Origin: a virus
Virus record (IMG/VR): IMGVR_UViG_3300025818_004904
Location: 1 to 45,808 of that record
Reading direction: 5' to 3' (one strand)
Length of the DNA stretch: 45,808 nt
Positions within the stretch are counted from its first letter, which is position 1, and every line of letters begins with the position of its first letter. A program made the position numbers and the translations under genes. The notes under the pieces were generated by a model. The model had not been told where the DNA came from, did not search any database, and saw only the letters and a list, made by a program, of their open reading frames with translations. Of this stretch, positions 2,328-45,808 are shown one piece after another.

Positions 2328-2338
2328 GCAAAGTCAAA

Positions 2339-2349
2339 AACTACTTACT
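2339..2349 (+). promoter_or_regulatory. Candidate AACTACTTACT element before aminotransferase
   Basis: AACTACTTACT lies about 23 bp before the aminotransferase ATG. Similar AACTA(C/T)TTA(C/T) elements occur at 8348, 12614, 15084, 42806 (looser) and 44599, each just upstream of a + strand gene. This may be a phage-specific promoter element. The function is inferred from recurrence only. Confidence 0.35.
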
Positions 2350-2371
2350 TCTAGTCTTCTAGGAGAGGAGT

Positions 2372-3625
2372 ATGTCAAACGAAACATTCAGGAAGGTTCC
2401 CAGGACCGGCGTTGTATATGTTGTACAAGAAGCTTCAAAGCTAGGTTTTTATAGAGGGAATCCTGAATGGGTCAATTTTGGACAAGGACAGCCGCAGACT
2501 GATTTTATAAAGAATGGTGTCGAGCGAATACACAATATTCCAGTAGTCGACGCTGACAACGAGTATGCACCTGTATCAGGATTGCCAGATTTGCGGGAAG
2601 CGATCGCAAATTATTATAATGAAACTTTCCGAAAAGGCAAGAAATCCAAATACACTGCAAAAAACGTCTCAGTAGTATCAGGGGGCAGACTAGCACTCGC
2701 CAGATTGGCGGCTTCACTAGGAAATATTAACTTAGGACACTTTGTCCCAGATTACACAGCCTATGAAGAGCTATTATCGACATTCAACCGCTTCAACCCC
2801 ATCCCAATCCTGCTAGACCCTGAGAAGGGCTACTCTTTCACAACAGAAGATTTGAGAAGAGAAGTCCAGGGTCGTGGTTTGGGTGCCGTTTTGGTATCCA
2901 ACCCCTGCAATCCAACGGGAAAAACTATTAAAGGTAAAGCACTAAAGGAGTGGGTGAGTACTGGACGAGACTTTGACTGCTATATGCTAATGGATGAGTT
3001 CTATAGCTCTTATGTTTATTCTGGGATGCGTTTAGACGAAACTCTCAGTGCCGCAAAATACGTTGAAGACGTAAATGAAGACCCAGTAGTCCTTTTGGAC
3101 GGTGCAACCAAAAACTGGCGTTACCCAGGTTGGCGTATTGCTTGGATTGTTGGACCAGAACACGTCATTGAGAGCGTGACTAGTGCTGGTAGCTTCCTTG
3201 ACGGCGGTGCTTGTCGTCCAGCCCAGCGAGCCATCGTTCCATTGCTTGATCCAGCCAAAGTGCAGCAAGAGACAGCCGCCTTGAAAGCAAACTTCAGGGA
3301 AAAAAGAAGAATAATGTTAGACGGTCTCCAAAAGCTTGGAGTGACCTTCGAAAGAGAGCCGGACGGAGCATTTTATGCTTGGGGTAATGTATCAGCACTA
3401 CCTGAGGGTCTGAATACAGGGATGGACTTTTTCAGAGCCGCTTTGCAAGAGCAAGTTATCGTTGTTCCAGGCGAGTTCTTTGATGTGAATCCTGGCAAGC
3501 GTCGAGGCAAAGCTTCTTCACGATTTAGTCAGCATTTGAGGTTCTCTTACGGGCCAGAAATCAGCACAATCAAGGAAGGAATAAAAAGACTTCAAAAAGT
3601 GGTAGAAAATCATACAAAAACTTGA
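2372..3625 (+). CDS. PLP-dependent class I/II aminotransferase
   Basis: This is a fold-type I PLP enzyme of aspartate-aminotransferase type; 417 aa is full length. Visible landmarks are SGGRLAL at 103-109 (PLP phosphate region), NPCNPTG at 177-183, DEFYSSY from 208 with Asp208 and Tyr211, and the Schiff-base lysine Lys247 in DGATKNWRYPGWR with Arg255. A C-terminal Arg in LRFSYGPE probably binds the substrate carboxylate. Substrate specificity cannot be read from the sequence. AGGAGAGGAG precedes the ATG. A full-length aminotransferase is unusual in phage. It could serve amino-acid metabolism, cell-wall precursor change or a DNA hypermodification pathway, but no partner nearby decides this. 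Its stop codon lies inside the next promoter's -35 box. Confidence 0.92.
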   Translation: MSNETFRKVPRTGVVYVVQEASKLGFYRGNPEWVNFGQGQPQTDFIKNGVERIHNIPVVDADNEYAPVSGLPDLREAIANYYNETFRKGKKSKYTAKNVSVVSGGRLALARLAASLGNINLGHFVPDYTAYEELLSTFNRFNPIPILLDPEKGYSFTTEDLRREVQGRGLGAVLVSNPCNPTGKTIKGKALKEWVSTGRDFDCYMLMDEFYSSYVYSGMRLDETLSAAKYVEDVNEDPVVLLDGATKNWRYPGWRIAWIVGPEHVIESVTSAGSFLDGGACRPAQRAIVPLLDPAKVQQETAALKANFREKRRIMLDGLQKLGVTFEREPDGAFYAWGNVSALPEGLNTGMDFFRAALQEQVIVVPGEFFDVNPGKRRGKASSRFSQHLRFSYGPEISTIKEGIKRLQKVVENHTKT

Positions 3626-3649
3626 CACACCCTTTGCCTGTGGTAATAT
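3622..3649 (+). promoter_or_regulatory. Sigma-70-type promoter, conserved cassette 1
   Basis: TTGACA at 3622-3627, a 16-bp spacer and TAATAT at 3644-3649, with a TGG extended -10. A leader with AAGGGGAGA follows before the ATG at 3671. The -35 box contains the TGA stop of the aminotransferase gene. The same layout recurs seven more times in the window. Confidence 0.85.
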
Positions 3650-3670
3650 ACTATTGCAAAGGGGAGAACT

Positions 3671-3898
3671 ATGGAAGTCGGTAAAAAAGTAAGACTTACA
3701 GGCATCACCCGTCACGGCAAGAATCGTGTTCGTGAACAAGGGGACATCTGGGAAGTCATTCGCATGAACCCATCAGTGTCTTTCAAGACAAACGCTCCTG
3801 GACCTTTTATGTTGCTCCAGGCAACCACCACCATCAATATGCGGTGGGTCTCAACAATTGATGACGACAACTTCTCAGTAGAGGTTATTGATGAGTAA
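3671..3898 (+). CDS. Small GDLV-type protein, 75 aa
   Basis: First gene after the promoter at 3622. It starts VGKKVRLTG, equivalent to the VGDLVR of neighbouring paralogs, and ends with a FSVEVIDE strand. Its beta-rich layout fits a small SH3/KOW-like barrel, but I infer that fold only from the pattern. AGGGGAGA gives a strong ribosome-binding site. The 3' end overlaps the next gene by eight bases. Function unknown; position after a strong promoter suggests early expression. Confidence 0.8.
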   Translation: MEVGKKVRLTGITRHGKNRVREQGDIWEVIRMNPSVSFKTNAPGPFMLLQATTTINMRWVSTIDDDNFSVEVIDE

Positions 3899-4103
3899 AA
3901 ACGAATGGCGTAAAAACCTGAAGGTTGGCGACCTCGTGAGGATGAAGTCTGGACACCTTGCGATCCTGACCGAGGTATATATGCGCTCAACTGGACCTGG
4001 CGGCAGCGAGTATCCGCACGTCAAAATATTATATTGCGATGATCAGTCAGCCGGCGGGTGTAGTGCTTGGCGAGTTGCGGAGGTTCTCAATGAAGCCAGG
4101 TGA
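3891..4103 (+). CDS. GDLV-family small protein, 70 aa
   Basis: The N-terminal part has KVGDLVRMKSG and the protein ends VAEVLNEAR, the two conserved ends of this family. I chose ATG 3891 over TTG 3888 because of AGAGG at 3880-3884. The last codons (GAGGTTCTCAATGAAGCC) encode EVLNEA and at the same time hold the ribosome-binding site and start codon of the next paralog, an arrangement repeated near 6300. Function unknown. Confidence 0.82.
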   Translation: MSKNEWRKNLKVGDLVRMKSGHLAILTEVYMRSTGPGGSEYPHVKILYCDDQSAGGCSAWRVAEVLNEAR

Positions 4104-4296
4104 TTTAGTTAGAATCTCAGACTGGGATGTCAAAGCCAATTTAGGCTGGAATCCCATCGGGCTTGTCTTATCAGAGCCTGAAGTGAAGAACCACGGCACA
4201 ACCTGTGTCCTTGTTGATTGGCTTGAATCACCTGACACCGAGTATTACTCAGTCCATCATTTAGAAGTTATTTCAGGGTCAGGAAAAGGAGAATAA
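4090..4296 (+). CDS. GDLV-family small protein, 68 aa
   Basis: Starts MKPGDLVRISDWD, has a central IGLVLSEPEV strand and ends near LEVISGSGKGE. It overlaps the upstream paralog by 14 bases. The DNA around its start is nearly identical to that of the paralog at 6307, so these are recent duplicates or gene-converted copies. It directly precedes the EcoRI-like endonuclease gene, which starts two bases after its stop. Role unknown. Confidence 0.85.
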   Translation: MKPGDLVRISDWDVKANLGWNPIGLVLSEPEVKNHGTTCVLVDWLESPDTEYYSVHHLEVISGSGKGE

Positions 4297-4297
4297 A

Positions 4298-4804
4298 ATG
4301 GCAGGCGGAATCCAACCAGGGACCACGGCTTGGGACGCTCAGTCACTCAACCACGACAAGGTTGTGCGACTAGCTTCGAAGGAAGCAGAAAAGATTCTCC
4401 AAGAGAGGTATCCTGGCATTCAGCGGCACAATAAGATTATTAAAGAATCTCTTCCAACCAAGATCGGAGCTTGTTCTCCAGACGGTGGCGTCTGGTACTA
4501 TCAAGGGAAGCTGATTGCTGCTTTTGAAGCAAAAAAACAGGGACCAAGAGGGAATGCTATTGAGCGCTGGTACAAAAACTATTTCCTCATTAAAGAGATC
4601 AATGATCGCTGCCCTCTGGTGACCTATGCTATGGGCGAGGGAGTGAGAGAAGGTAATCCCATTCAGGTCATCCTTCACGCTGCCCACAAAGGACAATACA
4701 ACACTTTCCGCTCAGAAGGTCCGTCCTGCTTCCTCAAGGAAGACGGCTTTACGCTAGAGGAAATCCGAGATAGTATAGTTCAGTTCATTGAAAGCGAGAT
4801 CTGA
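4298..4804 (+). CDS. EcoRI/MunI-like type II restriction endonuclease
   Basis: This is a 168-aa PD-(D/E)xK enzyme. SPDGG (Asp62) is followed by FEAKKQG, giving Glu77 and Lys79 as the remaining catalytic residues. Next comes GNAIERWYKN at 85-94, which matches the EcoRI segment GNAIERSHKN. In EcoRI, Asn141, Glu144 and Arg145 of this segment contact the inner AATT of GAATTC, so an AATT-containing target is likely. The protein is much shorter than EcoRI (277 aa) and lacks its C-terminal part, so outer-base specificity cannot be predicted. The methyltransferase gene starts four bases downstream. GGAGAA precedes the ATG. The pair could degrade host or rival phage DNA while the phage protects itself. 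Confidence 0.85.
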   Translation: MAGGIQPGTTAWDAQSLNHDKVVRLASKEAEKILQERYPGIQRHNKIIKESLPTKIGACSPDGGVWYYQGKLIAAFEAKKQGPRGNAIERWYKNYFLIKEINDRCPLVTYAMGEGVREGNPIQVILHAAHKGQYNTFRSEGPSCFLKEDGFTLEEIRDSIVQFIESEI

Positions 4805-4808
4805 AACT

Positions 4809-5735
4809 ATGACAAAGCCACTTTATATGTGGGCAGGCGGCAAGACCCGTATGCTCAAGAAATACGCTGACCTTCTTGAGGGTGTAGCTTTTGATCGTTA
4901 TATTGAGCCGTTCTTCGGCGGCGGTGCAATGTTTATCTGGGCATATCAGAAGAATCCAGATGCTGAGTTTATTATCAATGACATCAACTCAGGTATTATG
5001 AACATTTACACTGCCATCAAGAATGATTGTGATGACTTTGTTGAAGTCTTGGACATTTTGTCTAAAGAATACTTATCTCTCCCAAAGGGGGAGACAGACA
5101 AAAAGTTTGAGAAAGAGAATGAACTAAACTGGGATAAGTTATATCGCCTCCGTCCTTGCCGCCGATACTTTTATTTCAATCTTCGCCAGAAACATGCCTA
5201 CGAATATGAGGGCTGGGGCACAACAAAAGAAGCTGCTGTTTTGTATTTCTTGATGAAAACTGGTTTTAATGGTTTGTGGCAAGAGAACAAAAACACCAAT
5301 GGACGCTTTGGCACTCCTGCTGGCCTTTTGAACCAAAAAGATAAAGTTTATGATAAAGAGGTCGTTGAGTGGTGGCACCATGCTTTACAAAAATGCACAA
5401 TCCTTAGTGGCGACTTCGAGGCAACAAAAGAACACATCAACTCTGATACCTTTTTGTTTATGGATCCTCCCTACAGAGATAGTTTCACTCAGTATGAGAC
5501 TGATTTTAATGACGCCGAGCAGAAACGTGTAATCAGCCTACTAGAAGTTTGCCAGGAACATGGCGGAACAGGATGGCTTTCAAATAGGGAGGCAGGTGAC
5601 GGCTTCTTTGAAGAGAATGCATCAGGATTTACAATGCATAAGTTCCCTGTGACTTATACCGCAGGAAGAAGAAAGAAAGTTGATGATGGCTTCGAAGCTA
5701 AGAAAGCTACAGAAATTCTTTTGGTAACAAAATAA
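4809..5735 (+). CDS. Dam-type (D12 class) adenine-N6 DNA methyltransferase
   Basis: Transfers methyl from S-adenosylmethionine to N6 of adenine in DNA. The N-terminal MWAGGKTRML and EPFFGGG (about 34-39) form the AdoMet region, NDIN at 57-60 is the acidic loop, and DPPY at 219-222 is the catalytic motif; 308 aa is normal for the D12 class. I start at ATG 4809, after the nuclease stop, rather than the upstream in-frame TTG. It probably protects the target of the adjacent EcoRI-like enzyme. EcoRI's own partner methylase is a different class, so this would be a new combination. It may instead be a solitary GATC methylase. Confidence 0.93.
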   Translation: MTKPLYMWAGGKTRMLKKYADLLEGVAFDRYIEPFFGGGAMFIWAYQKNPDAEFIINDINSGIMNIYTAIKNDCDDFVEVLDILSKEYLSLPKGETDKKFEKENELNWDKLYRLRPCRRYFYFNLRQKHAYEYEGWGTTKEAAVLYFLMKTGFNGLWQENKNTNGRFGTPAGLLNQKDKVYDKEVVEWWHHALQKCTILSGDFEATKEHINSDTFLFMDPPYRDSFTQYETDFNDAEQKRVISLLEVCQEHGGTGWLSNREAGDGFFEENASGFTMHKFPVTYTAGRRKKVDDGFEAKKATEILLVTK

Positions 5736-8388: not shown

Positions 8389-10215
8389 ATGCCTATTAGT
8401 AGCAAAAACAAAAGTTTAGTTATATGGTTTATCGTTGTTGTTGCTGCTTTTTTCGTGTTGAGCGTCGGGACATTCGAGCCTCCCACTACAGTTGAGAAGG
8501 TCTCCTACACACAGATAATCAAGATTGTCGAGGAAGCCGAAGAAGCCAATAAGGACGCCTCTATTCTCATTCAGGGAAACCAATGGGAACTAAAAATAGA
8601 GGGCAAAACCTATATTACAACGGCTCCTTTAACTGATAAAACAATAGAAGACCTATCCAAGCACAAGAACCTAGAGATAAGGTTTTTGGAGCCCAAGCAG
8701 CCATCCATCTGGGTGACTGCCCTAATATCGTGGCTTCCGTTCTTAATAATATTTTATTTTGTTTATCGCTTTTTTAAGAACGCTCCAAAACTAGGCGGCG
8801 GAGGCGCTGGACGACTTGACGACTTTGGGAAGTCAGGTGCTACAGTCATTATGCCGGGTCTAGACGCCTACAAGTTTGATGACGTTGCTGGCTGCGACGA
8901 AGCCAAAGAAGAACTGGAAGACCTTGTTGAGTTTTTGCGGAACCCAAAAAGATTTACAGATATGGGCAGCAAACTTCCAAAAGGTGTTCTATTACACGGG
9001 CCTCCTGGAACAGGCAAGACACTACTAGCCAAAGCAATGGCTGGCGAAGCAGAAGTCCCGTTCCTATTGGCTGCTGGCTCAGACTTCGTAGAAATGTTTG
9101 TTGGCGTAGGTGCTTCCCGTGTCCGTGATTTATTCGACCAGGCTTATCAACTTGCTCCCTGCGTAGTCTTCATTGATGAGATCGACGCCATCGGCAAGAA
9201 GCGTGGCGGACCTGGGGGCGGAGGCAATGACGAGCGAGAGCAGACACTCAACCAAATGCTTGTCGAAATGGACGGCTTCGCAGACAACTCAGGCATCATC
9301 ATTTTAGCGGCTACAAACCGAGTAGAAATGCTTGACCGAGCCCTTACCCGCCCTGGACGCTTTGACCGCAAAGTTTCGGTTGGATTGCCCGATGTAAATG
9401 GGCGGCAACAAATATTAAAGATACACACACGCAACGTCCCCGTTGCTGAAGACCTAGACCTAGAACTCATAGCCAAAACAACACCGGGCTTCTCAGGTGC
9501 TGACCTATCCAACCTCGTCAATGAGGCTTCCATCATAGCAGCCCTAGACGAAGCACCCGTAGTTGAGAACTACCACTTCGACCAAGCCAGAGATAAAGTC
9601 ACTATGGGCAAACCTCGCAAGTCAATGAATATGAGCGAGGAGTCTAGACGTGCTACAGCAATCCACGAAGCGGGACACGCTCTGTTGGCTTACTACCTAG
9701 AGGACGCTGACCCTCTACACAAGGTCACCATCATTCCTCACGGCAGAGCCCTCGGCTTAACAATGCAACTCCCAGAAGACGACAAATATTCGTGGAGCAA
9801 AAAAGAAAACATAGCAAGAATCAAAGTATTGCTGGGTGGCTACATCGCAGAGAAAATGTTTTACGGGATTGAAGGCACATCAACAGGCGTATCAAATGAC
9901 TTATTACGAGCCAAACAAATAGCCGAGACAATGGTTAAGGACTACGGAATGGGCTCAGTCGGTCCAGTTTATTTCGGCAATGCCGACGCTTACGGCAATC
10001 GTGGTGCTGATATGTCTGACTTCACCAAAGAGCAGTTCGACACAGCCGTCAATGAGATTATGACCCAAGCCCTGCGGGAAGCAGAAGAACTGCTCAATGA
10101 AAAGCGAGAGCACATCGTCATTCTAACCAATATGCTCTTGGAGCAGGACACAGTCCTAGAGGAAGAGTTGGAAGGTATGTTCGGTCTCCTCGACATTTAT
10201 TTTGAGGAAGACTAA
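8389..10215 (+). CDS. ftsH: ATP-dependent zinc metalloprotease FtsH
   Basis: Membrane-anchored AAA+ protease that unfolds and degrades proteins. The 608-aa protein looks complete: membrane segments at about 9-27 and 106-126 flank a periplasmic domain, Walker A GPPGTGKT is at 204-211, Walker B VVFIDEID at 259-266, and the second region of homology [14 protein letters not shown] is present. The zinc site is HEAGH at 426-430 with Asp504 (VSNDLL) as likely third ligand, so it should be active. It lacks the long C-terminal tail of host enzymes. A phage FtsH could remodel the host protease pool or membrane quality control; cyanobacterial photosystem repair is one known host role for FtsH, but nothing here indicates that host. 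It is a single-gene unit with a recurrent element upstream. Confidence 0.97.
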
Positions 10216-10979: not shown

Positions 10980-11229
10980 ACGAGCGGCAAAAAAGAAAAA
11001 AGATAAAGCCCAAGCACAGCAACAGCAAGAGCAACTGAAAAAACAAATGAACATGTTTGACAGATTGCCAGAAGCATGTAATACTTGCGGCGAAGAATTC
11101 CCAAAGACCCGTGAAGCCCATATGTCTTGGCGAGTCACAGTGCGAAACAAAGAACAACAAGTTAGGCTATTCTGCCCTGACTGCCTAGAGAAAGCAAAAG
11201 AATTTGTGGAGGAACACAATGAAGTTTAA
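10948..11229 (+). CDS. Lys-rich zinc-ribbon protein, 93 aa
   Basis: The first 35 residues are Lys-rich with a Gln run, and the C-terminal half has CNTCGEEF and FCPDCLEKA, four cysteines in CxxC pairs that likely bind zinc. A basic tail plus zinc ribbon suggests nucleic-acid or ribosome binding. It overlaps the IMPDH-family start by 11 bases, so the two are likely coupled. Confidence 0.72.
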   Translation: MTNKKHKKKLKRAAKKKKDKAQAQQQQEQLKKQMNMFDRLPEACNTCGEEFPKTREAHMSWRVTVRNKEQQVRLFCPDCLEKAKEFVEEHNEV

Positions 11230-12259
11230 AGAAGCAGTAACTTACGACGACATGCTCTTGGTGCCCCAGTACAGCGACATCAAAAGCCGAAGTGAAGTAA
11301 ATCTTAGCAGCGATCTATCTGCCCACGTTACGCTTAACTTGCCTATTCTGTCTGCTCCGATGGACACAGTATGTGAAGGGGAGATGGCGGTCACCATGGC
11401 ACGTAATGGCGGCATGGGAATCATTCATCGCTACAACAGCATCGATGAGCAAGTAAGACTAGCTAGAGAGGTTTCAGCCCGAGGCGAGAGTGTTTTTGCT
11501 GCTGCTGTGGGAGTCACTGGCGATTACCAAGAGCGAGCAGCATCTCTTATTGATGTTGGTGTTAATACATTGTGTCTAGATGTCGCTCACGGGCACCACA
11601 TCTTGATGAAGAATGCCCTCCAACATCTACGAGCGAAGTTTGGATCTTCTATTACGCTGATCGCAGGGAATGTCTGTACCGTAGAGGGAGTAAATGATCT
11701 TGCTGACTGGGGTGCTGATGCTGTCCGAGCCAACATTGGCGGCGGAAGCATTTGCTCAACCCGCATCGTCACGGGTCATGGACTCCCAGGACTCCAGACC
11801 ATTTTTGATTGTGCTCGAACTGACCGAGATGTGAAGATCATTGCTGACGGCGGTATCAAAACCTCTGGCGACATTGTGAAAGCTCTAGCTGCTGGTGCTG
11901 ACTTTGTAATGTGCGGCTCTCTCCTTGCGGGAACCGAAGAAAGCCCAGGACTAGTCATCACCATGCCTGACGGCACCCGAATGAAAGAGTATCGAGGCAT
12001 GGCTTCCAAGGATGCCCAAATGAGTTGGCGAAATCGGTCATCAACTCCAGAAGGTGTTGCTTCCTACATTCCTTACAAGGGAAGTGTCGTAGATATTCTC
12101 CGTGATTTGGAAGGCGGCATTCGCAGCGGACTATCCTATACAGGTGCTCGCAACCTCGCCGAACTCCAGAACAATGCTCAGTGGTCTCGCCAGACTTCAG
12201 CAGGAACTGTTGAGAGCGGCACCCACATTCTCACTGCTCAAGATGGGCGGAGGAAATAA
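11219..12259 (+). CDS. IMP dehydrogenase/GMP reductase family protein
   Basis: A 346-aa TIM-barrel enzyme of purine metabolism. The start [15 protein letters not shown]-like region, the catalytic loop GGGSICSTR with Cys179, [20 protein letters not shown] and YRGMASKDA are all diagnostic. There is no CBS domain insert, so it has GMP-reductase-like length, but the C-terminus [13 protein letters not shown] resembles IMPDH (ITSAGLRES). The flap [12 protein letters not shown] lacks an obvious Arg-Tyr dyad. I therefore leave the direction (IMP to XMP, or GMP to IMP) open. ATG 11219 has GGAGGAA upstream. A phage copy could raise or rebalance guanine nucleotides for DNA synthesis. Confidence 0.93.

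Positions 12260-16688: not shown

Positions 16689-16692
<4 letters not shown>
15427..16692 (+). CDS. Putative PD-(D/E)xK nuclease paired with methyltransferase
   Basis: I do not recognise the 421-aa family as a whole, but residues 167-183 read PDG, 12 residues, then EVK, a PD-(D/E)xK site with Asp168, Glu181 and Lys183. The C-terminal half (FINNMYGAKDIYYIQIGG and a later VARFMSKD) may be the DNA-recognition part. The stop overlaps the start of a Dam-type methyltransferase by four bases, the classic arrangement of coupled restriction and modification genes. A type II-like restriction enzyme is the simplest reading. A packaging or recombination nuclease is possible because neighbours look virion-related. 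Confidence 0.72.
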
Positions 16693-19065
<2,373 letters not shown>

Positions 19066-30241: not shown

Positions 30242-31150
30242 ATGGGTTATCGCACTAATCAATGTTCTTCTTGTGCCGGCTGGGGTCACAATCGTCGTGG
30301 TTGCCCTGAGGTCAAAGCGGCTTATGAGAAGGTACTCAAGCTCTGTGTTAAGTATGGCATTGAGCTTGAGCCTGATGCTAGCTACTCCGAAGTGATTAAG
30401 CCGCTCAGAGAAAAGCAGATGGCAGCCCATGGTGTCAACGACTACTATGAGATTCACCACATTGATCACGAAGAGCACATCAGCTATTGGGAAACCACCA
30501 GCTTTATGGAGCAACGTGAGCGTCTTGCTGCCGCTGCCCGACGTAGAGAGCGAGGTAAAAAGCGTCAATGTAGCTTCTGCGGCAGGACTGGTCACAACCG
30601 TCGCAACTGCCCAGAGAAGGAAGCTCACATCCGTGAGTGCCGTGCGATGAAGTCCCTGGCTCACCGAGTTGCTCGTATGACCTTTGAGGCTGCTGGTATT
30701 GTGCCTGGTGCTCTGATTCAGTACCGTGAGTATGACTATACCACCAGAGACTATGTTGATCGTGTCGGCTTGGTTCAGGGCATTGACTGGTCCCAGATTG
30801 GTCAGCAGGATACTAAGAATAGCAGCGGCTTGGGCAATGTGCTTGAATACTGGGTCTTCCGTGGCAGCAAAAGCATTATCATCAAAGACCACGAAGGTCG
30901 CACTCGCAACATTGCGGTTCCCCGAAACATTGAACAACAGAGTAGTTATTTCGGCGACATGCACAACCAGTTCAGTTTGATCTGCCCCGTTCACGGTTCC
31001 CGTGTGAATCTTGATGGCTACGAGGGAGATAGCAAGTTCCCCGTCAGTATGCCAGTCTATATGTGGGGTGCCAAGTGGATGAACAAGCGATTCGGCAACA
31101 AAGTTATTAAGGCTATCAAAGAGGTTGGTAGCGAACTCATCGTAGCGTAA
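30242..31150 (+). CDS. Double CCHC zinc-knuckle protein, 302 aa
   Basis: Two perfect CX2CX4HX4C zinc knuckles are visible: Cys8-Cys11-His16-Cys21 (CSSCAGWGHNRRGC) and Cys110-Cys113-His118-Cys123 (CSFCGRTGHNRRNC). Such knuckles bind single-stranded RNA or DNA in retroviral and eukaryotic proteins and are rare in phages. The C-terminal 170 residues (from about 130) are unrecognised; EAAGIVPGALIQYREYD followed by DRVGLVQGI faintly recalls a GDLV-type barrel. It sits behind a strong promoter and a purine-rich leader, so it is probably early and abundant. A role in mRNA handling or host takeover is inference. Confidence 0.85.
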   Translation: MGYRTNQCSSCAGWGHNRRGCPEVKAAYEKVLKLCVKYGIELEPDASYSEVIKPLREKQMAAHGVNDYYEIHHIDHEEHISYWETTSFMEQRERLAAAARRRERGKKRQCSFCGRTGHNRRNCPEKEAHIRECRAMKSLAHRVARMTFEAAGIVPGALIQYREYDYTTRDYVDRVGLVQGIDWSQIGQQDTKNSSGLGNVLEYWVFRGSKSIIIKDHEGRTRNIAVPRNIEQQSSYFGDMHNQFSLICPVHGSRVNLDGYEGDSKFPVSMPVYMWGAKWMNKRFGNKVIKAIKEVGSELIVA

Positions 31151-31161
31151 GGAGAAAAGCT

Positions 31162-31338
31162 ATGGAAAAAGAAGTACTTATCGCACGTATCGAAGCCTTT
31201 GACATTGTTTGGAAAGAGGCGGAACGGCTGTCCCCAGGTGGCTACGAGCACCTCATGAGCACTGAAGATTTTTGGGACCCCTTCCTTCACAACGAATTTC
31301 AAACCCGCCGTGGATGGCATAAGCTTGGGAGCGCATAA
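31162..31338 (+). CDS. Small hypothetical protein, 58 aa
   Basis: Acidic-basic mix with FDIVWKEAERLSPGGYEHLM. GTAAGGAGAAAAG before the ATG. Shares one base with the next start (TAATG). Not recognised. Confidence 0.65.
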   Translation: MEKEVLIARIEAFDIVWKEAERLSPGGYEHLMSTEDFWDPFLHNEFQTRRGWHKLGSA

Positions 31339-31451
31339 TGAAAGAGAAATTTGATAAATGGGTCGAGGGTTGGTCAGATGGTACTTTGCTTATCTACTTC
31401 ACCGCTCTGGCTGTCCTTCAAACTTCGGTAGTCATCTTTGTCTTAGGGTGA
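31338..31451 (+). CDS. Single-membrane-segment protein, 37 aa
   Basis: Charged start then one hydrophobic segment (LIYFTALAVLQTSVVIFVLG) to the C-terminus. Coupled to upstream gene by TAATG. Confidence 0.52.
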   Translation: MKEKFDKWVEGWSDGTLLIYFTALAVLQTSVVIFVLG

Positions 31452-31455
31452 TGAA

Positions 31456-31707
31456 ATGAAGAAGATTATTCATGTAAATCAGAATGTCATCCGCCGTAAC
31501 ACAAAACAGGGCACTGACGAGCCAGTCTTGACGGTAAAAACATATAAAGAAAACAATTATGCCCACGAGGCTATAATCAAAACAAAAGATGGTGTAGAAT
31601 TAGGAAGAGTAATCTATAGTCCGCATAAGCCACTAAGTTGTGGAGCAAGAGTCTGGATTGAAACAGACACTGAGACTTCTGACGTAGAGCTTGTTGTGAG
31701 AGGGTAG
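31456..31707 (+). CDS. Small beta-rich protein, 83 aa
   Basis: Lys-rich start (KKIIHVNQNVIRRNTK), then strands ending CGARVWIETDTETSDVELVV. Last gene before the sugar cassette. Not recognised. Confidence 0.66.
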   Translation: MKKIIHVNQNVIRRNTKQGTDEPVLTVKTYKENNYAHEAIIKTKDGVELGRVIYSPHKPLSCGARVWIETDTETSDVELVVRG

Positions 31708-31739
31708 AACTTTATAACTTTAAAGCCTGGAGAAAATAA

Positions 31740-32633
31740 ATGGCTAAATATTTGGTAACTGGTGGTGCTGGATTTATTGGAAGCCACCTCGTTGAACAAC
31801 TCCTGGAAAACGGACATCAAGTTGTCGTCGTAGATGATGAGTCTGCCGATTGTAATGAAGAGTTTTTCTGGAATGATAGGGCAGAGAATCACAAAGTTGA
31901 TATTACAGACTATGAATCTCTTGCTCCATTATTTGAAGGGGTGAAGGGTGTGTTCCACTTCGCTGCCGAAGCAAGGATCCAGCCAGCAATCGAGAACCCA
32001 TCTCGTGCAGCATCTGTCAATGTGCTTGGCACTTGCAATGTTCTTCAGGCAGCAAGAACTCATGGCGTTGAGAGAGTTATTTACTCTGGAACATCTTCAG
32101 CATATGGGCTCAAGAACATTCCTCCATTACGAGAGGATATGCCTAATGACTGTCTCAATCCTTATTCTGTGACAAAGGTCGCAGGTGAAGAGCTATGCAA
32201 AATGTATACTAGGCTCTTTGGATTGAATACCGTTATCCTTCGCTACTTTAATGTCTATGGAGAACGTCAGCCACTTAAAGGTCAGTACGCTCCAGTAGTT
32301 GGGATCTTCCAGCGACAGGTAGCCAACGGGGAAGCTATGACTGTTGTTGGCGACGGTGAGCAGCGTCGTGACTTCACCTATGTGAAGGATGTTGCCAACG
32401 CTAACTTTCTTGCTATGACTTCGGAGAACAGCGAGATCTTTGGCGAGACATTCAACGTTGGCACAGGAACAAATATGTCCGTTCTAGAGCTTGCTGAGCT
32501 AATCGGCAATGAGGTAGTTCATATTCCCGAACGCCTAGGCGAGGCTCGTGCCACCCTTGCAGACATCGGCAAGATTAGGAGTATGCTCGGCTGGGAACCA
32601 ACTATCTCTATTCAAGAATGGCTTACAAATTGA
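31740..32633 (+). CDS. NAD-dependent nucleotide-sugar epimerase (extended SDR)
   Basis: TGGAGFIG at 7-14 is the NAD-binding loop; SGTSSAYG supplies the catalytic Ser/Thr, and Tyr142 with Lys146 (YSVTK) complete the active site. RYFNVYGERQ and DGEQRRDFTYVKDVA match UDP-glucose or UDP-GlcNAc 4-epimerases. At 297 aa it is compact but complete. Its likely role is to make UDP-galactose (or UDP-GalNAc) for the downstream mutase. It overlaps the glycosyltransferase gene by 16 bases. Confidence 0.93.
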   Translation: MAKYLVTGGAGFIGSHLVEQLLENGHQVVVVDDESADCNEEFFWNDRAENHKVDITDYESLAPLFEGVKGVFHFAAEARIQPAIENPSRAASVNVLGTCNVLQAARTHGVERVIYSGTSSAYGLKNIPPLREDMPNDCLNPYSVTKVAGEELCKMYTRLFGLNTVILRYFNVYGERQPLKGQYAPVVGIFQRQVANGEAMTVVGDGEQRRDFTYVKDVANANFLAMTSENSEIFGETFNVGTGTNMSVLELAELIGNEVVHIPERLGEARATLADIGKIRSMLGWEPTISIQEWLTN

Positions 32634-33352
32634 TCGCTGACAAAATACAAGTTGTGACTCTAACTTGTGACCAGTACCTTGATACAAGAGTCCCAGCAGT
32701 TAAAGAAACCTTTGGTCAGAACTTTGATACTATTTTTCTCACTGATACACCAGTCGATGAGGAGATCGTTGGGTATAACACCCCGAAAAACTATGATGGT
32801 ATTCAGCAGAAATACACTCAGTTTTTCTTAAACCACGACTTCACTAAGTTTGACTACTATTTCTTTGTCGATGATGACACATACATAAATCATAACAATA
32901 TCAACAACTTGGGACTAGATGAACTCGACCCAGAAGAAAGATTTTGTTTGCTAAGATTGCTGTATCTAGGGGAGACTGGTCTAGATATGCACGGACGCCA
33001 AACAGGCTATCCGATGCACAAGATCAAAGGAAAAAATACACAGCTACCCCTTTATCATCCAAGTGGCGGGGCTGGGTTTGTCTTGTCAAGGGCAGCCTGT
33101 CTAAGTATCCAAAACTTCTTAAAACAAGTGGATGAAGAGTCTTTGCCTCAAAGCGGACACTCTGATGTTACTGTTGCGTTTTGGATGCGAGAGTGTGATG
33201 TTAAGCTTCTCCCAAGTGATAAGCTTTGGTGGAATAATCCAGAAAGTCTCTATCAAGAATATTATTCTGACTTTACGGAAGAACTAGAAAAAAATGCTGT
33301 TACATTTCATTACATGACGCCTGAAAGAATGAGGGCAATGTATCAAAGCTGA
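32618..33352 (+). CDS. Fringe-like (GT31-type) glycosyltransferase
   Basis: DYYFFVDDDTYINHNN carries the metal-binding DDD motif (85-87); SGGAGFVLSRAA and HSDVTVAFWMREC are the next two blocks of the GT31 fringe/beta-1,3-galactosyltransferase family, best known from eukaryotes. No membrane anchor is present, so it works in the cytosol on UDP-sugars. The likely donor is a sugar made by its neighbours. The start is either ATG 32618 or TTG 32630. The acceptor (DNA, protein or lipid) is unknown. Confidence 0.8.
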   Translation: MAYKLIADKIQVVTLTCDQYLDTRVPAVKETFGQNFDTIFLTDTPVDEEIVGYNTPKNYDGIQQKYTQFFLNHDFTKFDYYFFVDDDTYINHNNINNLGLDELDPEERFCLLRLLYLGETGLDMHGRQTGYPMHKIKGKNTQLPLYHPSGGAGFVLSRAACLSIQNFLKQVDEESLPQSGHSDVTVAFWMRECDVKLLPSDKLWWNNPESLYQEYYSDFTEELEKNAVTFHYMTPERMRAMYQS

Positions 33353-33375
33353 TAGTCTTAGAAAAGGTTATAAAA

Positions 33376-34470
33376 TTGTATGATTACATTATAGTGGGCA
33401 GTGGGCTATTTGGCTCAATATGCGCCTACGAACTAGAAAAGCTAAACAACAAAGTTCTCGTCTTGGAGAAGCGTCCCCATGTAGGTGGCAACTGTTACAC
33501 TAAAAACGTTGAGGGTATCAATGTTCATAAGTACGGACCCCACATCTTTCACACAAACGACAAGAGGATATGGGATTATGTCAGCCAGTTCGTTGAGTTT
33601 AATCATTACACAAACAGGACCAAAGTAAATTACCAGGGTCAGATATATTCTTTTCCCATTAATCTGATGACTCTCAGCCAAGTTTGGGGAGTTAAGACTC
33701 CTCAAGAGGCACAGCTAAAACTAGAGAAAAACAGAGTCCCCATCAAAAATCCTCAGAACTTGGAGGAGTGGATCCTCTCTCAGGTCGGTGAGGAAATATA
33801 TGAAATATTTGTCAAAGGATATACCACTAAGCAGTGGGGGCGAGAACCAAAGTACTTGCCTTCATCGATTATTAGGCGACTTCCGATTAGGCTAACTTAT
33901 AACGATAACTATTTTAACGACAGATATCAGGGAATACCGATCGGCGGCTATACGCAGATCTTTGAAAAGCTTCTAGAGAACGTTGATCTAGAGACGGGCG
34001 TCGATTTCTTTGACAATAAAGAATATTTTGAAAGCATCTCTAAAAAGATCATCTTCACGGGAAAGATAGATGAACTTTTTGAATACACTTTTGGCGAGCT
34101 TGAATATAGAAGCTTGAAGTTTGAGGAAGAGATCCTAGAGGGGGATTTTCAAGGGAACGCTTTAATAAATTACACTGAACAGAGTGTCCCATTCACTAGA
34201 ATATGCGAACATAAGCACTTTGAGTTTGGAAATCAGGACAAAACTGTTATTACAAGGGAGTATCCAGACTCATACTCGGCTGGAAAGGTTCCCTACTATC
34301 CAGTCGGGGACCAGAAGAACTTAGAGATATATAAAAAATACAAAAACCTGTCCAAAGACTTTAACAACTATATTTTTGGTGGTAGACTAGCGGAGTACAA
34401 GTACTATGACATGCACCAAGTCATTGGAAGTGCCCTTAGTAAGCTCAAGAGAGGAATTATAAATGAGTAG
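33376..34470 (+). CDS. glf: UDP-galactopyranose mutase
   Basis: Flavoenzyme that converts UDP-galactopyranose to UDP-galactofuranose. GSGLFG at 8-13 is the FAD-binding loop, and KRPHVGGNCYT, KYGPHIFHTND and KGYTTKQWGR are characteristic mutase blocks; 364 aa matches the bacterial enzyme. The start is TTG 33376 with AAAGG eight bases upstream. Together with the epimerase and glycosyltransferase it forms a three-gene galactofuranose pathway. E. coli does not need this for growth, so in phage it probably serves glycan decoration. Confidence 0.96.
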   Translation: MYDYIIVGSGLFGSICAYELEKLNNKVLVLEKRPHVGGNCYTKNVEGINVHKYGPHIFHTNDKRIWDYVSQFVEFNHYTNRTKVNYQGQIYSFPINLMTLSQVWGVKTPQEAQLKLEKNRVPIKNPQNLEEWILSQVGEEIYEIFVKGYTTKQWGREPKYLPSSIIRRLPIRLTYNDNYFNDRYQGIPIGGYTQIFEKLLENVDLETGVDFFDNKEYFESISKKIIFTGKIDELFEYTFGELEYRSLKFEEEILEGDFQGNALINYTEQSVPFTRICEHKHFEFGNQDKTVITREYPDSYSAGKVPYYPVGDQKNLEIYKKYKNLSKDFNNYIFGGRLAEYKYYDMHQVIGSALSKLKRGIINE

Positions 34471-34540
34471 TAGAGTTGGAGTCATAGGATGTGGTTTTGC
34501 AGAAGATCTAATAAATCTAATCAAAAGGAGAACAAAATGA
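34463..34540 (+). pseudogene. Truncated Rossmann-fold oxidoreductase start, 25 aa
   Basis: SSRVGVIGCGFAEDLINLIK begins like a GFO/IDH-type dehydrogenase (GxGxxA) but ends after 25 codons, with the DUF3310-like gene starting on its stop. It may be a remnant of a deleted sugar-modifying gene or a start codon relay for the next gene. Confidence 0.45.
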
Positions 34541-34746
34541 TTAATAATAATGTAGATCACCCCAAACACTATAACGAAGGTGTCGAAGCAATCGATGTGA
34601 TTGAAAGCTGGGACCTCAACTTCAATGTAGGCAACGTCATTAAGTATATGCTACGTGCCCCACACAAGGGAGAAGAGATTCAGGACCTAGAAAAGGCTAA
34701 ATGGTATCTCGATCGTCACCTGGAGAATGTTAGGAAGACAAAGTAA
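34537..34746 (+). CDS. DUF3310-like protein, 69 aa
   Basis: VDHPKHYNEGVEAIDVIESW, GNVIKYMLRAPHKG and LEKAKWYLDRHL are the classic DUF3310 blocks (often annotated SaV-like). Found in many phages; function not settled. AAAAGGAGAAC precedes ATG 34537; a longer in-frame start at 34489 is unlikely. Confidence 0.9.
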   Translation: MINNNVDHPKHYNEGVEAIDVIESWDLNFNVGNVIKYMLRAPHKGEEIQDLEKAKWYLDRHLENVRKTK

Positions 34747-34865
34747 TGAAGGTAGCAGTTCTAGCAGCCGTCGTTTTGATCGGCGGATTCTTCATGGCTA
34801 AGCTAACACTTGAGTTCCTCGACATATTGCTCGAAAAACTCAAGGAAGAAAATAGAGAAGATTAA
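34746..34865 (+). CDS. Small membrane protein, 39 aa
   Basis: Hydrophobic first 20 residues (KVAVLAAVVLIGGFFMAKL), then an amphipathic charged tail. TAATG overlap with upstream gene. Confidence 0.58.
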   Translation: MKVAVLAAVVLIGGFFMAKLTLEFLDILLEKLKEENRED

Positions 34866-34866
34866 A

Positions 34867-35016
34867 ATGGAAGATATTAAAAAACTAACTGAACAATGTG
34901 TCCTAAACAGTGATAAGATACATGTGATTGCTCAAGAGTTAAAGAGCACCAAACGACAATTAGACAGGCTTGCAATCCTATATGTGATCACAACATTTAT
35001 CTTGGCGGCTTTGTAA
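34867..35016 (+). CDS. Small membrane-anchored helical protein, 49 aa
   Basis: Charged helix (KKLTEQCVLNSDKIHVIAQE) followed by a C-terminal membrane segment (LAILYVITTFILAAL). It starts one base after the previous stop. Not recognised. Confidence 0.6.
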   Translation: MEDIKKLTEQCVLNSDKIHVIAQELKSTKRQLDRLAILYVITTFILAAL

Positions 35017-35021
35017 GGAAT

Positions 35022-35705
35022 ATGACTGTAAAACTTATTTCATACTCACGAGTTCCCGACGAATCAGAGCTTGATCTTAATAATGTTCAGGAACTGATTG
35101 CTTATTGTGCGAGGGTGAGCAACCCTAGCAATCAAATGAATAAGGAAACCTCTGAGCGATTGATCAAATACCTGATCAAACATGCTCACTGGTCACCACT
35201 TGAGATGGTGAATGCTTGTCTTGAAATCAATACGACCAGAGATATCGCTCACCAGATTGTTCGGCACCGCTCTTTTGCTTTTCAGGAGTTCAGTCAGCGA
35301 TATGCCAACCCAAAAGAGATGGGCGATATGTTTATCTTGCGGGATGCACGGCTACAAGATAAAAAGAACAGGCAGAACTCAATCGATATTGACGACGATA
35401 CTCTCAAAGAAGAGTGGAACGCAAGGCAGACTGCTGTGATCGACCTAGCCAAAGAAACATATGACTGGGCGATTGAGAACGGGATTGCTAAAGAGCAAGC
35501 AAGAGTTGTGTTACCTGAAGGCAACACTAAAACACGATTGTATATGAATGGAACACTCCGCTCGTGGATTCACTACATTGAACTGCGAGCAGCCAACGGC
35601 ACCCAAAAAGAACATATGGAAATCGCTCACGCTTGTGCGAAAGTGATTGCTGAAATCTTCCCACTAGCCAAAGACTTTATTGAAGGAGAACAAAATGAAA
35701 ATTAA
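35022..35705 (+). CDS. thyX: Flavin-dependent thymidylate synthase ThyX
   Basis: Makes dTMP from dUMP using FAD, NADPH and methylene-tetrahydrofolate. The signature RHRX7S is exact at residues 81-91 (RHRSFAFQEFSQR). The C-terminal part includes RLYMNGTLRSWIHYIELR, the substrate-binding helix. At 227 aa it is full length. It complements the dUTPase at 1755, which supplies dUMP. GGAATATG gives a modest ribosome-binding site. It overlaps the next gene by 11 bases. Confidence 0.96.
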   Translation: MTVKLISYSRVPDESELDLNNVQELIAYCARVSNPSNQMNKETSERLIKYLIKHAHWSPLEMVNACLEINTTRDIAHQIVRHRSFAFQEFSQRYANPKEMGDMFILRDARLQDKKNRQNSIDIDDDTLKEEWNARQTAVIDLAKETYDWAIENGIAKEQARVVLPEGNTKTRLYMNGTLRSWIHYIELRAANGTQKEHMEIAHACAKVIAEIFPLAKDFIEGEQNEN

Positions 35706-36060
35706 AGTAAAAGTCTGCACAGAGAAACACATCGTAGAAGCAAGAACTATTGTTCTGGATACAGAAGAGTATCCAAGACTTCAGGAGATGATTGACAACG
35801 GAGAGTTGAAAGACATTTCCAACGGAGGTGAATACCCTGAAGGCGGAAGGTTCTGGCGGCTAGACTGGACAGACACAACCGCTAAAGAGTTCCTAGTGGA
35901 TGCTTGGCAGATTACCGACGAAGACGAAGCCGATGAGGTTTATTATGAAGAGCACTTCGACATTGACGAGAGTTGGGCTTATGACGGCATTGTCTGGGAG
36001 AACGACTCTGACCAGCACCCATTTGTTGTTGGCTATGTTCCAGTGGTAGAAGAAGAGTAA
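35695..36060 (+). CDS. Acidic hypothetical protein, 121 aa
   Basis: Beta-like start (KIKVKVCTEKHIVEARTIVL) then a very acidic C-terminal half with Trp residues (FWRLDWTDT, ESWAYDGIVWEND). ATG 35695 follows GAAGGAGAAC. Possibly a DNA-mimic-like acidic protein; not recognised. Confidence 0.72.
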   Translation: MKIKVKVCTEKHIVEARTIVLDTEEYPRLQEMIDNGELKDISNGGEYPEGGRFWRLDWTDTTAKEFLVDAWQITDEDEADEVYYEEHFDIDESWAYDGIVWENDSDQHPFVVGYVPVVEEE

Positions 36061-36189
36061 ATGAACATGATCGTAAAGTTCATATCATTTGTGATCTTTA
36101 TGATCTCATTTTACTTTTTGGCTTACTTTGTTGGCGACCGAGTGGCTGCTATAATCACCCGAATGAAAGGCACAAAAGAAAAGAAATGA
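36061..36189 (+). CDS. Small membrane protein, 42 aa
   Basis: One long hydrophobic segment (FISFVIFMISFYFLAYFVG) and a basic tail (RMKGTKEKK). It starts directly after the previous stop. Confidence 0.58.
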   Translation: MNMIVKFISFVIFMISFYFLAYFVGDRVAAIITRMKGTKEKK

Positions 36190-36269
36190 AAGGACTAATC
36201 AAGCTGATAATAATGAGCTTACCTATAGTATTATATACAGTAATAGATTCAGTAAGAACAGACGTATAG
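36186..36269 (+). CDS. Hydrophobic peptide, 27 aa
   Basis: KGLIKLIIMSLPIVLYTVID then a short tail. ATG overlaps the previous stop (ATGA). Small size keeps confidence low. A 390-bp non-coding region follows. Confidence 0.42.
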   Translation: MKGLIKLIIMSLPIVLYTVIDSVRTDV

Positions 36270-36310
36270 ATTGCTAGGTTGATAGCGTTTACTAGTTTGT
36301 TTACAGATCA

Positions 36311-36350
36311 CTGCAAAGTTTGCACACTTACTGCAAGAAATGCACAGTTT
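36311..36350 (+). repeat. Two tandem 20-bp iteron-like repeats
   Basis: CTGCAAAGTTTGCACACTTA is followed immediately by CTGCAAGAAATGCACAGTTT. Each unit has the form CTGCAA-N4-TGCACA-N4. The first holds a perfect 13-nt palindrome, TGCAAAGTTTGCA. A third partial copy (TTGCAAAATGA) lies near 36370. Confidence 0.75.
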
Positions 36351-36386
36351 TCAGAACTCATTGTTTTTATTGCAAAATGATAACAC

Positions 36387-36413
36387 TATGCTAGCTTTAT
36401 CAGTATGTTAGCT
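36387..36413 (+). repeat. Direct repeat TATG(C/T)TAGCT
   Basis: TATGCTAGCT at 36387-36396 and TATGTTAGCT at 36404-36413 differ at one base and are 17 bp apart, close to two helical turns. Confidence 0.6.
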
Positions 36414-36659
36414 ATGACTGCCATTGGCTGCTTTTGGCAGCGATTGTCAGCATTTGTATTAAATACACGGTAAATAGATCAACGTCAATCAAAAAGCAAT
36501 AGCAGGCAAAAGCAGAAAGGACTACCATTCTACCACACTCTTCGGAAGGTGTTAAACAGCTTTTGACTGCCGTACTCGACTAGGAGAGAGTTAAACTAAC
36601 GTATTGAAAAAGCAGGGAATAAAAAAAGACAATAAATGTGAAAAAAGAGCATTAAAAAC

Positions 36660-36687
36660 TTGACGGATACAGCATCTGTAGTAATAT
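36660..36687 (+). promoter_or_regulatory. Sigma-70-type promoter, conserved cassette 7
   Basis: TTGACG at 36660-36665, a 16-bp spacer and TAATAT at 36682-36687, then GTGTAAGGGAGAGAG before ATG 36711. Confidence 0.86.
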
Positions 36688-36710
36688 ACTAGTGTAAGGG
36701 AGAGAGATTC

Positions 36711-37754
36711 ATGGCTGTTGATTTCAAAACGTTCGTTTCCTTAGCACCCGCAGTGAGCGCTGCTCGCCTGCCTGTCCTGCTCCGTGGTCGCCACGGTATT
36801 GGCAAGAGCCAGGTTGTGTATCAGCTTGCTGCTAACATGGGCTTGCCTGTTATTGAGCGGCGTGCTAGCCAGATGACAGAGGGTGATCTTGTTGGTCTCC
36901 CCAGCATTGATGGCAACCGCACGAGCTTTAACCCGCCTGACTGGTTCAAAGAAGCTTGTGAAGAGCCAGCAGTTCTCTTCCTTGATGAAGTTGATCGTGC
37001 TACTCTGGAAGTCCGCCAAGGGATTTTCGAACTGACTGACAGCCGTAAGCTGAATGGTCATCATCTTCACCCTGACACGATTGTGTTTGCTGCCATCAAT
37101 GGCGGGGAACATGGGGAACAATACCAAGTTAATGAAATGGACCCAGCAGAACTTGACCGATGGTCAGTCTGGGATATTGAGCCCACTGTTGAAGACTGGC
37201 TTGCATGGGGCAAGGAAAACGTTGATAGCCTGATCTGGGATTTTGTGAACCAGAATAGGGATCACCTTGAGCATAAGGGCGAAATTGAGCCGAACAAGCG
37301 CTATCCCAGCCGTCGTAGCTGGAAGCGGCTGAACGATGTGCTCGCAGGTGCTGGCTATCTTGAAGAAGCTGGTCCTGAAATGTTCACCCTTGCTCAGTCC
37401 TTCGTCGGCTTCGAAGCTGCTGTCGCTCTCAATGACTTCGCTCAGAACTATGAAAGGGTTGTGACGGTTGCTCAGCTTCTCGCTGGTGAGCGTAAAGACG
37501 CTCTGGCTGCCTTCTCCCTGAATGAGCACTGTGCGATGGTGGAAAAGATTGAAGCAGAAGAAGTCTGCAAGGAAGAACTCAGCGCCGAACACATCAGTGC
37601 TCTGGCTAGCTACTTCTGCGAGTTGCCCTCTGAAGCGGCAATGAAGCTCTGGACGGTCCTCAGCACCGCTGGTGTTCAGGACAACGTCATCAAGTTCCAC
37701 GGTGCTAATGATGGTGCCGTCGGTTCTCACCTCTCCAAAATCCTGGGAGCCTAA
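36711..37754 (+). CDS. MoxR-type AAA+ ATPase
   Basis: Walker A GRHGIGKS at 26-33 and Walker B VLFLDEVD at 88-95 lie in a 347-aa protein with the MoxR/AAA_5 layout (DLVGLPSIDGNRTSFNPPDW and FAAINGGEHG are typical). MoxR ATPases act as chaperones or metal-insertion factors with VWA proteins; the next gene is exactly such a protein. It has its own strong promoter, and a terminator separates it from the VWA gene, which has a matching promoter. CGT, CGC and GGT codons look commoner than in nearby genes, consistent with high expression. Confidence 0.92.
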   Translation: MAVDFKTFVSLAPAVSAARLPVLLRGRHGIGKSQVVYQLAANMGLPVIERRASQMTEGDLVGLPSIDGNRTSFNPPDWFKEACEEPAVLFLDEVDRATLEVRQGIFELTDSRKLNGHHLHPDTIVFAAINGGEHGEQYQVNEMDPAELDRWSVWDIEPTVEDWLAWGKENVDSLIWDFVNQNRDHLEHKGEIEPNKRYPSRRSWKRLNDVLAGAGYLEEAGPEMFTLAQSFVGFEAAVALNDFAQNYERVVTVAQLLAGERKDALAAFSLNEHCAMVEKIEAEEVCKEELSAEHISALASYFCELPSEAAMKLWTVLSTAGVQDNVIKFHGANDGAVGSHLSKILGA

Positions 37755-37783
37755 TCTCTCTCTCACCCTATCCCAGGTGCATT

Positions 37784-44611: not shown

Positions 44612-45808
44612 ATGAGTACTTTCAGAGAACATAAGACTATCGCCGATCGAGCAGCGAATGACCGCTCTCGGCATAGGAAAAAAGTAGAAAAAGCAATCAA
44701 GGAAAGCATCAAGGATGTTGTTGCCGAAGAGAGCATCATTGGTCAAAGTGGTAAAAAGAAAATAAGGATTCCAATCAAAGGAATCAAAGAACACCAGTTT
44801 GTCTATGGAAACAATGAAAAGAATAAAAGAGTTGGCTCTGCCCAAGGTAAGGATGTAAAACAAGGGCAACGAATAGGGAAAACTAATCCCCGCAAAGGAC
44901 AGGGGCAAGGAAACAAGCCAGGCAATAAGCCTGGTGAGGAAATGTACGAAATTGAGATGTCCCTGGAGGAGCTAGCGGAATATCTCTTTGCTGATCTTAA
45001 TCTCCCTGAACTAGAAAAGAAGCAGTTCAAGTTTATTACTGAAGAGAAGATGAAACGTAAAGGCAAGAGACCTTACGGTATTCGTCCTAGACTTTCTAAA
45101 AAGGAAACAATAAAACAGAAGATAAAAAGAAAGAAAGCAGCAATCAAAGCTGGAACACACGATCCTGAAAGTGGTGAGCGTTTCCCATTTCATGAAAGTG
45201 ATCTAAGATACAAGCACATTGCTCCTGTAGAAAAGGAAAACACTACAGCAGTTATTTTCTTTGTAATGGATGTCTCTGGGTCTATGACTAAGTCTAAGAA
45301 GTTCTTGGCTCGTAGTTTCTTCTTTCTTTTATACCAATTTTTGAATCACAAGTATTCTTCAGTTGATGTTGTTTTTGTTTCCCATACAACTGACGCAAAA
45401 GAAGTCAATGAAGAGCAATTCTTCACCCGTGCTACTGGTGGCGGGACAATGGCTTCTTCTGGGCTTGAAAAAGTCAAGGAAATCATAGACAAGAGATATC
45501 ATCCAAATAACTGGAATATCTACACTTTTTATTGTGGCGATGGCGAGAACTGGGGCTCTGATAATGATAAGACTATAGAGCTTTTTAGGGAACTAAAAGA
45601 AATAAACCAAATGATGTGCTACACAGAGATTGGCGAAGGTAACGATAACTCACGTATAAACTCTTTATCATTCTTTGCCGAGTTTTCTGAAAACAGTTTA
45701 TGGAATCGTATTGAGACTCTGACAGACAAAAGACTTAAGAAAAACCGATTGATAACCCATGATAATATTTGGTCATCTTTCAAGAGACTGTTCGGAGGGA
45801 AAGCATAA
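44612..45808 (+). CDS. yhbH: YhbH/YeaH-type (DUF444) VWA protein
   Basis: This matches the bacterial YhbH/YeaH family along its length: HRKKVEKAIKESIKDVVAEE, KIRIPIKGIKEHQF, ELAEYLFADLNLPELEKKQF, a VWA MIDAS DVSGSM at 220-225, RSFFFLLYQFLNHKYSSVDV, GGGTMASSG and NIYTFYCGDGENW. At 398 aa it is complete and ends on the last base. In bacteria this gene works with the PrkA kinase and SpoVR in stress and stationary-phase control; neither partner is visible here, though they could follow. The N-terminal helix resembles the leader motif of its neighbours, but it is also native to the family. Confidence 0.95.
   Translation: MSTFREHKTIADRAANDRSRHRKKVEKAIKESIKDVVAEESIIGQSGKKKIRIPIKGIKEHQFVYGNNEKNKRVGSAQGKDVKQGQRIGKTNPRKGQGQGNKPGNKPGEEMYEIEMSLEELAEYLFADLNLPELEKKQFKFITEEKMKRKGKRPYGIRPRLSKKETIKQKIKRKKAAIKAGTHDPESGERFPFHESDLRYKHIAPVEKENTTAVIFFVMDVSGSMTKSKKFLARSFFFLLYQFLNHKYSSVDVVFVSHTTDAKEVNEEQFFTRATGGGTMASSGLEKVKEIIDKRYHPNNWNIYTFYCGDGENWGSDNDKTIELFRELKEINQMMCYTEIGEGNDNSRINSLSFFAEFSENSLWNRIETLTDKRLKKNRLITHDNIWSSFKRLFGGKA

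Follow-up and report, generated by a model that had tools for sequence, protein, structure and literature searches.

A dispensable three-gene phage insert predicted to make and transfer galactofuranose

What would a phage do with three successive sugar genes, one of them from a glycosyltransferase family known mainly from eukaryotes? The question arises from IMG/VR record IMGVR_UViG_3300025818_004904, whose 45,808 bases are called the window here. The window is a genome fragment from a marine phage lineage, with a DNA polymerase fragment at its left and an open reading frame (ORF) running off its right end. At positions 31740-34470, genes for an epimerase, a Fringe-like transferase of the GT31 type and a UDP-galactopyranose mutase (UGM) lie head to tail on the plus strand, on which the insert and flanking genes below are also given. 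The overlapping or closely spaced run described in the initial annotation was confirmed, with a 16-base overlap between the epimerase and Fringe-like ORFs and a 23-base gap between the Fringe-like ORF and that of UGM. A crude hydropathy scan revealed no evident membrane helix in the three proteins. A separate IMG/VR contig (L002) repeats window positions 30747-34998 without gaps at 99.86% identity, which makes an assembly join at the three-gene run unlikely and led us to rule out an artefact at the cassette. Host rather than phage DNA was likewise ruled out, as the flanks are phage-conserved genes whose synteny is found in many virus contigs. Elsewhere, the window carries host-like genes for an FtsH-like protease (8389-10215), a member of the IMPDH/GMP reductase family (11204-12259), GroEL (17479-19065) and a DUF444 protein (44612-45808), and two phrog_56 DNA methyltransferase genes (4788-5735 and 16689-17486). 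A 302-aa protein at 30242-31150, kept across the phage lineage, contains two CCHC zinc-knuckle-like repeats, CSSCAGWGHNRRGC and CSFCGRTGHNRRNC; it had no match in Pfam or PHROG.

The firmest of the three enzyme assignments is that of UGM (33376..34470; 364 aa, TTG start). The protein matched PF03275 (E 1.3e-76) and, over residues 1-359, NCBIfam TIGR00031 with 409 bits, exceeding the curated equivalog cut-off of 303.75. It is 58% identical to E. coli Glf across its length, has the FAD-binding motif GSGLFG at position 8 and shares with Glf the catalytic residues H56, W154, R168, Y179, R275, Y308 and Y343. These features strongly support an enzyme predicted to turn UDP-galactopyranose into UDP-galactofuranose. 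A bifunctional UDP-GalNAc mutase of the C. jejuni UNGM type was considered and is less likely, as the window protein has H59, not R59; arginine in place of histidine at this position is what we take to be the mark of that type.

For the first gene (31740..32633; 297 aa), matches to Pfam Epimerase (E 2.8e-62), to the nucleotide-sugar epimerases of phrog_540 (E 1.9e-100) and to PDB 4zrm (E 4e-55) point to an NAD-dependent nucleotide-sugar epimerase. It has the extended-SDR features GGAGFIG at position 8 and YSVTK, the YxxxK motif, at 142 (Y142), and is 56-60% identical to epimerases of cyanophages S-SKS1 and P-SSM2. Its best NCBIfam model was GalE (TIGR01179), but because the score of 165.9 bits is below the cut-off of 262.3, we call it GalE-like only. 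UDP-glucose as its probable substrate is suggested by the adjoining UGM.

The middle gene (32618..33352) encodes a 244-aa protein that matched PF02434 (E 7.3e-10; 39.1 bits, where the curated threshold is 21) and PF01762, Galactosyl_T (E 4e-6). All 24 aligned viral relatives also matched PF02434 at E <= 0.01, and no convincing PHROG was found for these 24. Twelve positions are invariant across the 24 sequences, including D85-D87, the catalytic-base candidate D183 and H231. Thus the metal-binding DxD (DDD at 85-87), the catalytic Asp of motif V (SDV at 182-184) and the C-terminal His (H231) are all present in the window protein, as is an SGGAG motif at 149-153. The residue before the catalytic Asp is S182, neither acidic nor Gly. 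Searched against PDB, the family profile retrieved C1GalT1 (7q4i; E 4e-23), Manic Fringe (2j0a; 5e-9) and GfsA (8yrl; 2e-7). The enzyme is probably a soluble inverting GT-A transferase, in which the DDD motif would work with a metal and D183 would act as the base. By profile, it has the GT31 core fold region and active-site residues in common with animal Fringe and C1GalT1 (PDB 2J0A, 7Q4I); it differs from them in lacking an acidic residue in motif V, in belonging to a prokaryotic virus and in adjoining UGM. With GfsA, the beta-(1->5)-galactofuranosyltransferase of Aspergillus fumigatus (PDB 8YRL, PMC11538602), it shares GT31, the DxD, the catalytic Asp, the metal-binding His and a non-acidic residue preceding the catalytic Asp, Gly in GfsA and Ser in the window protein. 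The profile match to GfsA covers only part of the domain, and GfsA is roughly double the length, having a beta-sandwich domain in addition.

How rare such enzymes are in phages depends on where one looks. Against named phage records, two Fringe-like queries had no match and a third had one weak partial match, to an uncultured metagenomic phage; the rarity claimed initially therefore holds for these records. It does not hold for IMG/VR environmental virus contigs, in which the family occupies 55 loci in about 37 non-redundant groups. When a bacterial source of the GT31 gene was sought, the sole relative found in the genome collection, by one strict peptide-pattern scan, was in a Bacteroidetes metagenome-assembled genome (MAG); such a scan undercounts relatives because a single strict pattern was used. 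Across 395 genomes of the phylum of that MAG there were one strong and six weak GT31-like matches. The one clear cellular relative (L139:6001-6642, Bacteroidetes MAG) is inside an open frame of 3071 codons, with a UGM gene at a distance of about 4 kb.

Comparison with relatives of the window delimited the cassette. By blastn, window positions 30284-31702 correspond to positions 1-1428 of contig L147 and positions 34525-37767 to its positions 1429-4666, at 92% and 88% identity, so that L147 joins window base 31702 straight to 34525 without the cassette. The same empty junction occurs at 378/379 in a second relative, L222, with about 91% nucleotide identity near the site. The three genes are a discrete, dispensable insert of 2,822 bases (31703..34524), missing from both relatives. 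To its left, the insertion altered the final codons of a phrog_8676 gene (31456..31707); to its right is a gene for a DUF3310 protein (34489..34746), whose native start is, from synteny, probably an ATG at about 34537. The insert is slightly low in GC (0.417 vs 0.442 for the window).

This site varies among relatives. Just past its DUF3310 gene, L222 carries a GmrSD_N/HNH endonuclease-like gene together with RmlC-, RmlD- and RmlB-like dTDP-rhamnose genes (L222:597-4343). Its RmlD-like ORF is short (243 aa), and the restriction-type gene adjoins the sugar-donor genes. In other relatives, the cassette interval is taken up by DNA methyltransferases or by small uncharacterized genes. Left of the cassette site in L148 (9055-10592), a protein without a Pfam match is followed by an N6/N4 DNA methyltransferase, in a layout like that of a restriction-modification pair. 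None of 14 related records has a UGM, and six of them have a GT2-type transferase elsewhere, several adjoining other transferases. The varied contents indicate a variable spot of which the galactofuranose (Galf) module is one of several occupants, and the empty-site relatives together with the Rml cassette of L222 suggest a swappable nucleotide-sugar module in this marine phage lineage. Absence from close relatives and the low GC would also suit passenger genes taken from a shared phage gene pool and having no present role. Yet the three ORFs are intact and tightly packed, their catalytic residues are kept and other phage contigs contain this combination too, and we regard a mere passenger status as very improbable.

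Does the Fringe-like enzyme use Galf? In counts over non-redundant groups, with the window left out of the Fringe-like set, 6 of 36 Fringe-like groups had a UGM gene no more than 5 kb away, compared with 1 of 42 phage GT4 groups (p 0.04) and 0 of 70 phage ATPase groups (p 0.001). The single positive among the GT4 controls was the locus from which the query itself came, a locus identified by way of UGM. UGM-linked Fringe-like members, window included, are spread over four clades, suggesting about four independent links between UGM and GT31. In L003, the epimerase, GT31-like and UGM genes are all adjacent in an order different from that of the window, and in L119, L120 and L091 UGM directly adjoins the GT31-like gene. 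Among the best 80 UGM loci in virus contigs, a Fringe-like gene could be detected within 6 kb at none besides L002, so that pairing with GT31 is not the usual arrangement for phage UGM. In a stretch of L120 (690-9864), UGM and two Fringe-like genes are interspersed among tail-fibre genes, one of them encoding collagen repeats and an Mtd_N (major tropism determinant) domain.

The active site gives a third line of evidence, after neighbourhood and arrangement. According to the study of the GfsA structure, GT31 enzymes that use a pyranose carry Asp or Glu just ahead of the catalytic Asp, whereas GfsA has Gly there, a proposed feature of galactofuranosyltransferases (PMC11538602). In the eight UGM-linked viral members this residue is Gly in five, Ser in three and acidic in none; in 31 unlinked members it is mostly Ser, with seven acidic residues and one Gly. 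As a clean marker, a non-acidic residue was rejected, since the difference in acidic residues (0/8 vs 7/31) is not significant (about 0.17, hypergeometric by hand). For Gly (5/8 vs 1/31), the value is about 5e-4 by hand, for related sequences and with a test chosen after the data had been seen.

Of the initial proposal that the cassette makes and transfers Galf, the making is thus well supported by UGM, and the transfer in part, by the UGM neighbourhood and the motif. The recurrent neighbourhood, the gene arrangement and the motif suggest that the GT31-like enzyme may transfer Galf. Alternatively, epimerase and UGM might make UDP-Galf for transferases of the host or others of the phage, and the Fringe-like enzyme might act with another donor, UDP-Galp, UDP-GlcNAc or UDP-Glc, on the glycan that those transferases modify. 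The solved enzymes closest to it by profile, a beta-1,3-glucosyltransferase and C1GalT1, are indeed pyranose users, the window enzyme has the Ser that is also the norm in unlinked members rather than Gly, and other transferases are present elsewhere in relatives of the lineage. Such a division of labour fits poorly with the enrichment of UGM around the Fringe-like family and with the absence, from all UGM-linked members, of the acidic residue that pyranose users keep; we consider it unlikely.

We propose with moderate confidence a module for UDP-Galf synthesis and Galf transfer, swapped in and out of a variable spot, that acts on a host-surface or virion glycan. The epimerase would convert UDP-glucose to UDP-galactopyranose, UGM, as predicted from its family and active-site residues, would convert this to UDP-galactofuranose, and the GT31-like enzyme would move Galf to an acceptor glycan. 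The acceptor would most likely be a host-surface glycan (LPS or capsule) or a virion glycan, and adsorption or superinfection might be altered as a result.

Phage DNA, virion proteins and host surface had all been suggested as targets at the outset, and they do not fare equally: we would rank the host surface first, the virion second and DNA third. Both rhamnose and Galf are frequent constituents of bacterial surface polysaccharides. Since a close relative has genes for making rhamnose just one gene downstream of this site, a surface glycan fits better than DNA, and DNA has the least support of the three. Galf on a modified phage base could block restriction, and DNA-glycosylating phage transferases do exist; moreover, relatives have DNA methyltransferases in the same interval, and a GmrSD_N/HNH gene stands beside the rhamnose genes of L222. 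But no thymidylate-synthase-type hydroxymethylase (PF00303) was found in the 14 related records (about 1 Mb in total, several being fragments), and without this usual enzyme in relatives DNA becomes a less likely target. A search of related records for Tet_JBP (PF12851) also gave none, with its positive control equally silent. To our knowledge, no GT31 enzyme acts as a DNA transferase. Given also that rhamnose and Galf are typical surface-glycan sugars, DNA hypermodification appears improbable.

A narrower form of the reading that we prefer would have the module decorate tail fibres or capsid only and leave the host surface untouched. The UGM-GT31 pair of L120 does lie between tail-fibre genes, and glycans on mycobacteriophage capsids and tail tubes have been reported in work cited in PMC12619734. 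The window cassette, however, is set among non-structural genes with no structural gene adjoining, and we doubt that the virion is the only target.

Parts of this picture are already known, namely UGM in phages and phage sugar-gene clusters; the pairing with GT31 and the cassette swap are new. UGM matches occur in 88 phage records (Rhizobium, Agrobacterium, Aeromonas and Streptococcus phages; phrog_9677), full-length proteins of the same family whose identity to the window UGM does not exceed 57%. Unlike the window, the named-phage collection that holds these records gave no Fringe-like match. Earlier papers list phage UGM among cell-wall related genes (PMC6630229, PMC10611076). In marine T4-like phages, LPS-type genes vary and have been proposed to alter the host O-chain against coinfection, as set out in a study of pelagimyophages (PMC7029224). 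In such phages (pelagimyophages; cyanophages P-SSM2 and S-SKS1), variable glycan genes are either clustered or found in twos and threes, as in the window, but GT8 is the main transferase family reported, and the available text of PMC7029224 mentions neither GT31 nor UGM. The closest parallel in position is the Rml cassette of L222, in the same lineage and with nucleotide-sugar genes within one gene of the same site; it supplies a different donor, includes no recognised glycosyltransferase and is accompanied by the GmrSD_N/HNH gene. In open-licence papers we found no description of a phage GT31/Fringe-like family, of its recurrent pairing with UGM or of such an insert with an empty-site relative.

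Phage UGM had previously been noted singly, with a guess at a role in the cell wall; here it stands in a dispensable module beside a transferase of a mainly eukaryotic family. As a tentative extension, the phage GT31-like family may include a galactofuranosyltransferase branch of prokaryote viruses, paired with UGM in several lineages and swapped against dTDP-rhamnose modules, in what could be a viral sugar-coat switch. The empty-site and rhamnose-bearing relatives offer a testable comparison, in which much the same phage backbone carries no donor genes, UDP-Galf genes or dTDP-rhamnose genes. Should UDP-Galf prove to be the donor of the GT31-like enzymes, these would count as compact relatives of their fungal counterparts and could help to show how GT31 transferases choose a furanose.
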